This document shows positions 15,400-41,240 of a stretch of DNA of 64,000 nucleotides, one piece after another. The DNA is from Heterostelium album PN500 (lineage: Eukaryota > Evosea > Eumycetozoa > Acytosteliales > Acytosteliaceae), in contig NW_008805065.1 in assembly GCF_000004825.1 (NCBI RefSeq), forward strand, positions 1,426,001-1,490,000. Direction: 5' to 3'. A program made the position numbers and the translations under genes. The notes under the pieces were generated by a model. The model was not told the DNA's origin. It did no database searches and worked only from the letters and a program-made list of their open reading frames with translations. The first letter of the stretch is position 1; each line of letters begins with the position of its first letter.

Positions 15400-16152
15400 A
15401 TGTCAACCGCTTTAATCCCAGGAAATGCCTATGGTACTTTGAATGTCCGTTCATCATCCAACTGGTCACCAGACTGCTCTGTTGTTTACTCACAAATCAA
15501 CTACAAGAAGGGTAATATCTCCTCTGCCAATGCTTCATCCTCGTGGCACGCTCTCACCGCTGATGACAAACAATGGGTCACATTGAGTTCACCAGTACCA
15601 GTTGAATTCCATCAAATCCAAACCCAAGGTAGAGGAGATGACGATTTGTCTCAATGGGTTACTAGTTACAAAATTCGTTACACTGAGGACGGTGTCAACT
15701 GGGTCGATGGACAAACATTCCAAGCCAACACTGACCGTCATACCGTTGTTACCAACACTTTGTGTCCACCGATTGTCGCTCGTTCCATTGCCATTCACCC
15801 ACTCACCTGGCAAGGATTTGTTACCATGAGATTCGATGCTCTCTACCGTCCAATCAAGCACACCATCACCAAGACTGGTCTCGTTATCGATGAAACTCAA
15901 AAGTTCAACTCTGGTTGTCCAATTGGTGATAAATACTCTGAGCACGTTATCAAGTTTGACAAACCATTCCCAAGAATCCCAGAGGTTATCTGTGCCTTGA
16001 CTCAAATCGATTGTGCTCAAGACAAGAACTTGCGTATCCGTGTCTTTGCCAAGGATATCACCAAGGAAGGTTTCACCTTTGTCTTTATGACCTGGTTCGA
16101 TACCAAGTTATACGGATTGAGAGGATCATACGTTGCTACATTGGATCAATAA
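15400..16152 (+). CDS. Discoidin (discoidin I/II-type lectin)
   Basis: An intronless 250-residue gene. The N-terminal half is an F5/8-type C (discoidin) domain with blocks such as SSSWHALTADDKQWV and YKIRYTEDGVNWVDG. The C-terminal half (about 165-250) is an H-type lectin domain, with KHTITKTGLVI and a final GLRGSYVATLDQ block. An RGD tripeptide lies at residues 78-80, as in D. discoideum discoidin I. Family members are galactose/GalNAc-binding lectins made at the onset of starvation and secreted without a classical signal peptide; none is visible here. Codons are strongly C-ending, as expected for an abundant protein. Its 3' end is 59 bp from the convergent ubiquitin-conjugating enzyme gene. 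Confidence 0.95.
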   Translation: MSTALIPGNAYGTLNVRSSSNWSPDCSVVYSQINYKKGNISSANASSSWHALTADDKQWVTLSSPVPVEFHQIQTQGRGDDDLSQWVTSYKIRYTEDGVNWVDGQTFQANTDRHTVVTNTLCPPIVARSIAIHPLTWQGFVTMRFDALYRPIKHTITKTGLVIDETQKFNSGCPIGDKYSEHVIKFDKPFPRIPEVICALTQIDCAQDKNLRIRVFAKDITKEGFTFVFMTWFDTKLYGLRGSYVATLDQ

Positions 16153-23581: not shown

Positions 23582-24853
23582 ATGGCATCACCTTTATCTC
23601 CACCAAAAATCCAAACAGTCGCGACACCAAACATAATGTCGTATGATCATTATGTTAAAACACCTCATATTCAATTAAGTTATCAGAAATGGGGTGAAAT
23701 TAAAAGATATTCACAGATAATACACGAGTTTGCAACAGATGCACCAAATCATCCACTATCAAATGCTTTATTTTCAGATCTGTATAATATATCAAGAGTA
23801 TTAGTGGAAGTTATCGATAATTTATATATAGAATCTCATACAAGAGAAAGTTTAGAGGTATGATAATTAAAGATTATCAATTGGAATAATAATAATAATA
23901 ATATGTTTTTTTTATAGTTTAATAATTTTAGTCATCAATTGGCAAATGGACAAATGGTATACAAGAATCAAACAGTTCCAACGGATGCAATGATGATCGA
24001 TACAAAAAAACCTCAACATATTATACCACAAACAGGTTATTATCCATACGAATATATGGGATATTATTTACAACAACAACAACAACAACAAGCTACAATG
24101 CCACAAACAGCCAACTCTATAGCTTCACCACAAATCATTCCACTGGCTGGCCAAATTCCTCAACTTTCATCTTCAGGCTCGTCTATTGTGACTGTTCAAC
24201 AACAGTTACCAAGACAAGCCAATGGAACTCCATCACAACCACTGACGCCACCCCAAAAAGTAATGAATGCCTCATCTAATGGCGTAATTGCAACGAATAT
24301 GCCATCAGTGGCAGCAGCAGCACAGAAATCAGGCTCAAACTCACCACCCACCAACACCACCATACCCAAAACTAAATCTGGCAACAAACAAAACGTTTCA
24401 ACAGTGTCCACAACAGCAGCGGCATCGACAACAACAACATCATCATCAGCAACACCAACCAACTCCACCAACACATCAAAGAACTTTACTGGCGAGGTAT
24501 TCTTTGATGACATTTTGCATGACAAACCAAGAAGAAGAAGAAGAACTGTTTACTCTGCCAAGAGGAATCTGCGATGTCATTTCTGTCATGTCACAGAGAC
24601 ACCAGAGTGGCGAAGAGGTCCAGACGGTGACCACACTCTATGTAATGCATGTGGTCTGCACTATGCCAAGACACTGAAAAAGAAAAACAAAGACGATCAA
24701 GAAGAAAAAGAAAGAAAAGAGAGAGAAGAAAAGGAAGAGAAAGAACGAAAAGAAAGAGAAGAAAAAGATCGAAAGGAAAAAGAGGAAAAAGAAAAACAAA
24801 CTGAAAAAGATACAAGAAAACATAGTATTGATTTTGTAATTGAAGCAACATAA
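23582..24853 (+). CDS. GATA-type zinc finger transcription factor
   Basis: Two exons, 23582-23857 and 23918-24853, join in frame for 403 residues. A single C-x2-C-x18-C-x2-C finger (LRCHFCHVTETPEWRRGPDG then CNACGLHYAK) lies at about 295-335, preceded by a basic RRRRR patch. TPEWRRGP and LCNACGL are canonical GATA-finger residues contacting DNA. The middle is low-complexity (polyGln, Ser/Thr/Ala/Pro). The C-terminus is a Glu/Lys/Arg helix of about 50 residues with heptad-like charge, likely a coiled coil. Exon 1 encodes a non-repetitive helical region of unknown role. Dictyostelids have many GATA factors controlling development; I cannot assign the orthologue. Confidence 0.92.
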
Positions 24854-32365: not shown

Positions 32366-34330
32366 ATGTATCCGCATCGACTCCACAACACCAACTATCT
32401 CTCCTATTTAATTAGAAAATACAATGGCGAACATGTAACAATTCTACATGTAGAGATTCCGGAACGTGCAGAAATGGATTCAATTTCATCATTTGAGAGT
32501 AAGTTGATCAACTACTACAAATATATTTATATATAATTTGAAATAAAAATAAATATTAATAATATTTATTTAATATTAGATGGAGAATTTCATTTTGTAA
32601 GAAGAAAAACAGATAATAATAAAAACAATAAAATAAGAAAAAATATTCAAGGAAACTCTTGGAAGCAGAATGGATCAGAAACTAAAATCAAAGCACCCGG
32701 TACCGAAAAGGTTATCGGTATCAAGCGAACCCTCACTCTCCAAGACAAAAAGCGAGATTTCAAATTGTGGGAATTCACACTGGCCGACTCCAACGGAGAA
32801 GAGATCAAGAGTCTGATGTTGCGCCAATTCCTGAGGGATACCAAAGAGAACGACCAAAAGAAAACCTACCCAGATCCCGACAACAATATGATATATTCAA
32901 CACCCGAAGACTATCATAACAACAATAACAATAAGAAGGTCGCTGGCAATGCTTTTGGGAATACTCAGCAACTCACATCAAGTGGCCGAGCCGAAAGTGC
33001 CTCACTACCAAACATAATGCATCTCAACACCCACAATTTCTCAAATACACACACGATGAGTAATCCTTCTCATCATCATCAGCTTTTCTATCACCAGATT
33101 TCGTCTTCTGCGCCATCGTCATCTTCATCCTCTCCGGTACCACCACCTCATCATGGTCATCATCAACATCACTCTCTGCCACACATAGATTATGCCAACT
33201 ATAGTAACAATAGCAATTTTCATCCACTTGGAAACATTCACTATCAGAATCGCAATGATTCTGGATTACCCAATCCACCTGTAAATCCCAATTCCGTCGT
33301 TCCTACAAACTATACATTTGGGAATAACTCCAACTACTCTGCCAACAGAGCTCAACCCACTGGTTTTCATAGTTTAATCTCCGAACCATTGAGTCAATAT
33401 CCTCACATTCAACATCACTTCTCACCACCTCAACATCCTCAAAGTGGTTATGAAAACAATCCATCATTCCAAGCACAATCAGCTTACCAAAATCAAATTC
33501 ATAACAAATCAATGTATCATCCTCAATTCATGTTACAACAATCTCGCGAAGATCAACAACAACAACACCAACAGCAACAACAACAACAACAACAATATAG
33601 AAATGTACATATTCAACAACATCACAACAATAGTAATTCCTCACTCAACCAATTCAATTATCCATATCAACAAGGTACATTATCACCCCCTGCAACATCA
33701 TCTTCATCGTCCGTATCATCGTCATCTTCTTCTTCTTCTTCCAACTCTTCAATTGGACATCCATCAAGTATTCCAATTGGAAATCTAACCTCTTCATCGA
33801 ATAGTGGCTATGGAATATCCAATAGCAACAACAACAACGATTTATCTCTACCGAGAATCTTTAATGGTGCATCTGTTCCTCACAACACAGGTAACCATCA
33901 ACCAACTATGTTCCCACCACTTCCAACCGGTTCGCAATCAAAACACACTCCCAAGAAGCATCGTTCTGATTCCGAACAATATTCGAGCTCGTCATCATCA
34001 TCCTCTGCATCATCTTTTGACAATAGCACATCATCTGCTCCGTCAAACTTTCATCTCGCTCCGCCATTCCAATCTGGATCGGCATCAATCATTCATAACA
34101 TGTTAGGTTCATCCTCAAACACTCCATCACCATCTTCGCCAATCATCACCTACAAGAAGCCGCCTTCACCACCATCACCACCATTCAACAAACAATCTAT
34201 GCACAATCATCACAGTCCCATCACCACCACCACTACAACCACCACAACCACAACCACCGGTGCATCTTCACCCGCTGGCAACAAACAAATCAAAAGAAAA
34301 GAAAATTTCGACAAGTTAGACTTTGCCTAA
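32366..34330 (+). CDS. Putative transcription factor with NAC-like N-terminal domain
   Basis: Two exons, 32366-32498 and 32580-34330, join in frame for 627 residues. Residues about 10-130 are non-repetitive. They carry, in order, LSYLIRKYNGE, a VEIPE strand, EFHFVRRK, a basic loop, NSWKQNGSETKI, VIGIKRTLTL, KLWEFTLAD and SLMLRQFLRD. The order and spacing parallel plant NAC subdomains: EWYFF..R, GYWKATG..I, VGIKK.LVF, W.MHEYRL and W.LCR. The remaining 490 residues are Asn-, Ser-, His-, Gln- and Thr-rich, typical of dictyostelid nuclear regulators. DNA binding is inference from this resemblance; no structure-level check was possible. The long C/A-rich upstream region would suit a developmentally controlled gene. 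Confidence 0.6.
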
Positions 34331-34634: not shown

Positions 34635-35327
34635 TTATTCAATGTTATCTTTGATAACTGGTTTCTCACTGATGCAACCACATTTCTTGCAGGTTCTGAG
34701 TGGTTCTTCTTCGTAGAATCTCAAGATGATTGGTTTCAATTCTTTACCTAGGTCCAATCCTTTTACGTTGAATGACTCTTCAAAGAGCTTCTCTTTGCAG
34801 CCTTGACAGAACCAACAGAGACGATCAATAGATTGAGCATTACGTTTTTGTTCAATTACCAAACCAACTGTATCCTTGAAACGTTGTGGTGAATGTGGTG
34901 TATTACCTGGTAACAAGAAACATTCACCTTCACGAATTCTTACATCTTTAAACTGACCATCACTCTTATCGACAATCTTTAATATCATATCACCTTTGAA
35001 TTGATAAAAGAATTCCTAAACAACAATATATAATATTAAAATTTATACGATGATAGGCAATTGTAAGATATATATTATAATATAGATTTACTTACATCAG
35101 TTTGATTGATATGATAATCTGTTCTTTGGTTTGGACCACCAACAATCATAATGACAAAAGTAGAATCAGGGTCATCATATATTAACTTTGCATTTACGGG
35201 TGGTTCTAAAAGATGTTTGTGCTCTTCAACCCACTATTTGTTGAATTAGTAAACTTTTATCAACAACTATACTATTACTAATAACAATATTAATATTTAC
35301 CTTGTTAATATTTAAAGGAGGTAACAT
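34635..35327 (-). CDS. haao: 3-hydroxyanthranilate 3,4-dioxygenase
   Basis: Three exons join in frame: 35301-35327 (nine codons), 35096-35233 and 34635-35015, 181 residues. It opens the ring of 3-hydroxyanthranilate in the kynurenine route to quinolinate and NAD. Cupin-fold signatures include [14 protein letters not shown] with the first iron His, [10 protein letters not shown] with the iron Glu, and [16 protein letters not shown] with the second His. The C-terminus keeps two Cys pairs (CWFCQGC and CKKCGC) that form the rubredoxin-like metal site found in bacterial and yeast enzymes but lost in animals. Length fits the family (about 175-190 for this type). Confidence 0.95.

Positions 35328-38803: not shown

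Positions 38804-41240
<2,437 letters not shown>

Follow-up and report, generated by a model that had tools for sequence, protein, structure and literature searches.

The window analysed here, a 64,000-nucleotide stretch of the Heterostelium album PN500 genome, contains a two-exon gene at 32366 to 34330 on the plus strand, the product of which, read from the sequence, is 627 residues long. By eye, its ATG is preceded at a short distance by a TAA in the same frame. Exon 1 (32366 to 32498, +; 133 bases) has an open frame and supplies residues 1 to 44 and the first base of codon 45, encoding the N-terminal part of a NAC-like domain from which the LPPGFRF motif is absent. It is followed by an 81-base, phase-1 GT-AG intron (32499 to 32579, +; GTAAGT...TTAG) that keeps the frame yet contains one TAA; the splice sites were read directly and the splice was deduced from the DNA sequence, not from mRNA. 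Exon 2 (32580 to 34330, +) opens with the core of the domain (32580 to 32857, +), which extends up to residue 137, was assigned from a match to the Pfam family NAM and from alignment with plant NAC proteins, and includes the motifs EFHFV, a basic segment, SWKQNG, IGIKRTL, LWEFTL and LMLRQF. The initial annotation had placed a NAC-like region at 32366 to 32830; its motifs are indeed present there, and the interval is not a single reading frame, being broken by the intron. Each motif that it quoted was located in the spliced protein, namely EFHFVRRK at residues 47 to 54, NSWKQNGSETKI at 70 to 81, VIGIKRTL at 89 to 96, LWEFTL at 107 to 112 and LMLRQF at 123 to 128.

Residues 1 to 137 contain no cysteine. 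The remainder of the translated protein (residues 138 to 627; 32858 to 34327, +) is of low complexity and rich in glutamine, asparagine, serine, histidine, proline and threonine, with two basic clusters, KHTPKKHR and KQIKRKEN, noted by eye as possible nuclear signals. No family besides NAM was matched by the full-length 627-residue protein in Pfam at E ≤ 1.

Several neighbouring genes in the window could be assigned. Adjoining the NAC-like gene downstream, in convergent orientation, is a gene for 3-hydroxyanthranilate 3,4-dioxygenase (34635 to 34988, −, with more exons by eye to about 35330; PF06052, E 4.6e-28). An ATP synthase alpha/beta-type protein is encoded at 39492 to 41240 (+), with about 115 lysine/glutamate-rich residues past its last Pfam match. 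A GATA zinc-finger factor with a long low-complexity N-terminus lies at 23954 to 24853 (+; E 1.4e-15), and a discoidin-like lectin with an F5/8 type C and an H-type lectin domain at 15400 to 16152 (+), the latter in keeping with a dictyostelid.

Paralogues within the genome

A search of the assembly (32.9 Mb, 39 contigs) with the window-gene domain identified two further loci, L004 (C10:1620491-1620778; E 5.9e-18, 47% identity) and L005 (C14:759488-759757; E 1.3e-6, 32% identity). The same three loci were recovered among the matches listed when L004 or L005 served as the query, and within those matches the family amounts to three loci in the genome and no repeat family. Over the aligned domains, the window-gene domain is 40% identical to L004 and 33% to L005. 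L004 likewise carries a long low-complexity tail; L005 is scarcely more than the domain itself, the tail being absent. All three genes contain a phase-1 intron at one aligned site, directly before G-[EK]-[FI]-H-F (splices by eye), and their first exons measure 133 bases in the window gene, 148 in L004 and 133 in L005.

A fourth locus (C5:548973-549212; E 0.12 with the L004 query) was rejected, being asparagine-rich and devoid of both WK and WEF. An L004 match to Ubiquitin_UBP8 (E 0.0047, 17 bits, cut-off 27) and a match to Protamine_3 (E 0.065) were taken as chance. Contamination was also rejected, as the gene is situated within a 2.29-Mb contig and the contigs that carry the paralogues measure 2.26 and 1.05 Mb. 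Pattern searches for relatives elsewhere returned 58 fitting stretches in viral contigs and 50 in prokaryote genomes, none of which was confirmed. Just downstream of the L005 gene, at about 1890 to 1985 of that locus, a tRNA-like sequence with an intron was seen by eye; ARAGORN reports none there.

Similarity of the domain to plant NAC domains

When the spliced N-terminal 147 residues were searched against Pfam-A with hmmscan, NAM (PF02365) was the sole family at E ≤ 1; its E-value is 1.1e-6, and its score of 29.6 bits exceeds the cut-off of 27. The NAC-like character that the initial annotation had read by eye from the N-terminal region is thus borne out at profile level for the isolated domain, and the match is echoed in one of the two paralogues: L004 alone scores 20.5 bits against NAM (E 7.3e-4), under the cut-off, and L005 matches no Pfam family at E ≤ 10. 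The match of the window gene spans residues 41 to 104, corresponding to profile positions 49 to 110 of 122. With the full-length protein as query the score falls to 25.1 bits (E 2.7e-5), below 27, so that whole-protein annotation at that threshold would miss NAM, which may be why the gene was overlooked earlier. When all six frames of the assembly were searched with NAM, a single candidate was scored, the gene's own 32585 to 32758 (26 bits, under the cut-off), in a non-exhaustive first look that passed over the weakly matching L004. NAM is also matched by a hand-made consensus-like sequence, at 22.9 bits (E 1.3e-4) and thus under the cut-off.

Several controls were applied to this signal. Twenty composition controls, made by shuffling the 137-residue domain 19 times and reversing it once, gave no match to NAM at E ≤ 10, and the strongest hit of any control to whatever Pfam family had an E-value of 0.026; the suggestion that the original match might be fortuitous finds no support in these controls. 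A profile HMM built from three plant NACs scored the window-gene domain at 11.3 bits, a value reached by none of 5000 shuffles (top shuffle 11.1 bits). With the same HMM, L004 scored 3.8 bits, reached by 43 of 5000 shuffles, one of them at 12.4 bits, and L005 scored 0.4 bits, reached by 320 of 5000; out of 5000 shuffles each, scores were returned for 4346 with the window domain, 4188 with L004 and 4004 with L005, the remainder being lower. Profile-profile comparison with hhalign of the three amoebal and three plant sequences gave a collinear alignment of 105 columns with a score of 19.97 (E 0.018, probability 2.6%), and this score was reached by 2 of 400 column-shuffled plant alignments, aligned over 17 and 15 columns. 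In the reverse direction, a three-sequence amoebal profile searched against the PDB did not retrieve plant NACs at E ≤ 10; it returned nine matches, all to a bilin reductase and none better than E 0.18. This is a failed test, though one that weighs little, the profile being thin with just three related sequences behind it. The window-gene domain alone had no match in the PDB at E ≤ 1 (phmmer). Taken at the level of sequence, the resemblance to NAC exceeds chance.

The residues behind this resemblance were examined in an alignment of the three amoebal domains with the PDB sequences of ANAC019 (1ut4/3swm), rice NAC1 (3ulx) and ANAC092 (7xlj), to which the window domain is 18 to 22% identical. 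All six sequences agree at eight positions: L15, F50, W72, K73, G76, K93, E109 and R126 in window-protein numbering. In subdomain C, F50 and the tryptophan, lysine and glycine are kept in 3/3 amoebal and 3/3 plant sequences, W72-K73-x-x-G76 aligning with the plant WKATG strand. The lysine of the plant KKxL strand is likewise shared, as is the E-[FY]-x-[LM] strand of subdomain D, where E109-F110 aligns with the E-Y of plant MHEY and E-[FY] is retained in every amoebal domain; however, the plant WxMHEY is altered (tryptophan to phenylalanine, histidine to tryptophan) and the GKAPKG loop is absent. R126 corresponds to the arginine of the last plant strand, beyond the stretch matched by Pfam. In subdomain E, the arginine followed by x-[FY] is present in all six sequences; the tryptophan and cysteine of W-V-[LI]-C-R-[IVL]-[YF] are not retained.

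Basic residues preceding the tryptophan are also shared with plant NACs. K62 and K65 lie at −10 and −7 from the tryptophan, matching the placement of ANAC019 R85 and R88; the equivalents are arginine and lysine in L004 and leucine and histidine in L005, so that lysine or arginine occupies both positions in two of the three amoebal sequences. The residue R110 of wheat NAM-A1 is described as binding DNA, as known from ANAC019 (PMC6749658), and by derivation it would be equivalent to ANAC019 R88.

The N-terminal part of the domain aligns poorly with plant NACs. Subdomain A (LPPGFRFxPTDEEL), which holds the arginine/glutamate dimer contacts, is absent in all three amoebal sequences, the LPPGFRF motif being located in the plant dimer interface, formed from subdomains i and ii (PMC6749658). 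In plant NACs, 56 residues counted from LPPG precede the first core strand, compared with 47 to 52 residues preceding that strand in the amoebal domains. Of the NAC subdomain order claimed for the region, C, D and the last strand are collinear, the B region corresponds loosely and A has no match. Judged on these residues, the domain is a divergent NAC-like one and the protein is not a canonical NAC protein, as subdomain A is missing.

Proposed function and origin

The overall layout of the window gene resembles that of plant NAC proteins, which consist of an N-terminal domain and a disordered C-terminal region (PMC6749658), in that an N-terminal domain is followed by a low-complexity tail. It is likely that the gene encodes a transcription factor comprising a divergent NAC-type DNA-binding domain in its N-terminal 130 residues and a long low-complexity regulatory tail, and that it belongs to a small family; the three loci most likely represent such a family of NAC-type transcription factors, and the amoebal protein most likely functions like NAC. 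The fold, DNA binding, nuclear role and common descent with plant NAC are what we infer from these comparisons. NAC proteins bind DNA sequence-specifically, with a CGT[GA] core. In the amoebal protein, the domain would adopt the NAC fold, a twisted antiparallel beta sheet flanked by helices, with its W-K-x-x-G edge strand (SWKQNG) inserting into the DNA groove and the basic segment preceding it (K62, K65) gripping the DNA, while the Q/N/S/P-rich tail would recruit or block the transcription machinery in the nucleus. Lacking the LPPGFRF dimer motif of plants, the protein would act on DNA as a monomer or form dimers in another manner. As a guess, the tail-less L005 could compete for sites.

Other DNA-binding families were considered for comparison. 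Cud/SpaA is likewise an Amoebozoan transcription factor family, however the conserved segment of SpaA is described as residues 184 to 589 (PMC5923282), as opposed to the N-terminal 130 residues here, and on this description the two are set apart. Two WRKY domains, L017 and L018, are present in the same genome about 800 bases apart (C7:1193343-1194499, −), both above the Pfam cut-off. The window domain differs from them in having no cysteine, and thus is not a zinc-binding WRKY/GCM form; none of WRKY, GCM and FLYWCH is listed at E ≤ 10 for any of the three NAC-like domains, in a listing from which HMMER filters drop most matches above 0.1. GCM and FLYWCH had no match in the genome, and their controls were silent too, so that little is shown by this.

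Two explanations would deny the domain a strict relationship to NAC. The weaker of these holds that the likeness is an effect of chance or composition in a lysine/asparagine-rich region, the domain being an unrelated amoebal one, and is considered very improbable: although the reverse search fails, L005 has no Pfam match, the full-length protein is below the cut-off, the paralogue scores on the plant-only HMM are within reach of shuffles and the window domain clears its best shuffle there by 0.2 bits, such an effect is difficult to reconcile with the E-values of both the isolated domain and the full protein, the silence of all 20 controls, the failure of any of 5000 shuffles to reach the window domain, the weak NAM match of L004 and the profile-profile control. 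Improbable as well is a separate origin within the WRKY/GCM/NAC beta-sheet group, such as through zinc loss in an amoebal WRKY domain or in a transposase domain, with convergence on NAC motifs; the protein would then still bind DNA without being a strict NAC relative. Welner et al. in 2012 reportedly related the NAC and WRKY beta-sheet DNA-binding folds, and this relationship, the neighbouring pair of WRKY domains in the genome, the confinement of the Pfam signal to residues 41 to 104 and the poorly alignable N-terminal part are all compatible with convergence. However, the missing cysteine and the lack of any listed WRKY, GCM or FLYWCH match speak against it, as does a correspondence that extends to basic residues preceding the WK strand and to a last-strand arginine outside the Pfam match, and a family of three loci with no repeat family among the matches listed. 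Common descent of the amoebal domain with plant NAC is probable.

How such descent came about is a separate matter. NAC/NAM was classed as 'not in Dictyostelia' by Forbes et al. 2019, who screened 97 families by InterPro identifiers and BLAST in five dictyostelids, D. discoideum, D. purpureum, D. lacteum, P. pallidum and D. fasciculatum, the classification including P. pallidum (PMC6873476). Among the matches listed for literature on NAC outside plants, no titles or abstract openings report NAC domains in Amoebozoa. In a survey of 160 plant species, NAC was found in one of nine algae, the charophyte Klebsormidium, and an earlier study cited there reported NAC absent from algae and bacteria (PMC7147800). 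A distribution reported as land plants and one charophyte alga would favour acquisition of a NAC gene from a plant or alga by horizontal transfer into the dictyostelid lineage, followed by fast divergence and duplication, an explanation that concerns origin rather than function and is contained within the transcription factor reading preferred above. Transfer is nonetheless regarded as unlikely, as the window domain is closer to its paralogues (40% and 33%) than to plant sequences (18 to 22%), the three genes have a common intron site and no subdomain A, and a sign of recent transfer is absent; the shared intron would be compatible with transfer of genomic DNA and incompatible with an mRNA copy.

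The first intron offers a further comparison with plants. Intron 1 falls in phase 1 in the majority of maize NAC genes, two subfamilies differing, and the primary structure has a first exon of 140 to 230 bases (PMC4219692); the amoebal first exons are at or slightly below this range. Mutation coordinates for wheat NAM-A1 (PMC6749658) place an intron of about 218 bases, by derivation, between residues 45 and 110, which bracket the first-intron site without fixing its exact position, and the intron passages of PMC6678211, PMC3017804 and PMC9777940 give no position for the plant NAC first intron. The amoebal intron appears to agree with plant NAC genes in phase and rough place, a lead towards, not proof of, an ancient shared intron. 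With this in mind, it is conceivable, if doubtful, that the NAC domain predates the split of plants and Amoebozoa and was lost in most lineages, not being of streptophyte-algal origin, with the dictyostelid form preceding the gain of subdomain A and keeping its first phase-1 intron in about the same place as plants.

NAC regulators are described as confined to plants, so that the fold may be of greater age, or occur in more lineages, than has been assumed. If the relationship is true, the NAC-like domain of this social amoeba would serve as an outgroup for the NAC family, separating its core, the WKxxG strand and basic segment, from parts possibly added, such as the dimer motif, and the origin of NAC would become testable in an organism that is easily grown and knocked out.
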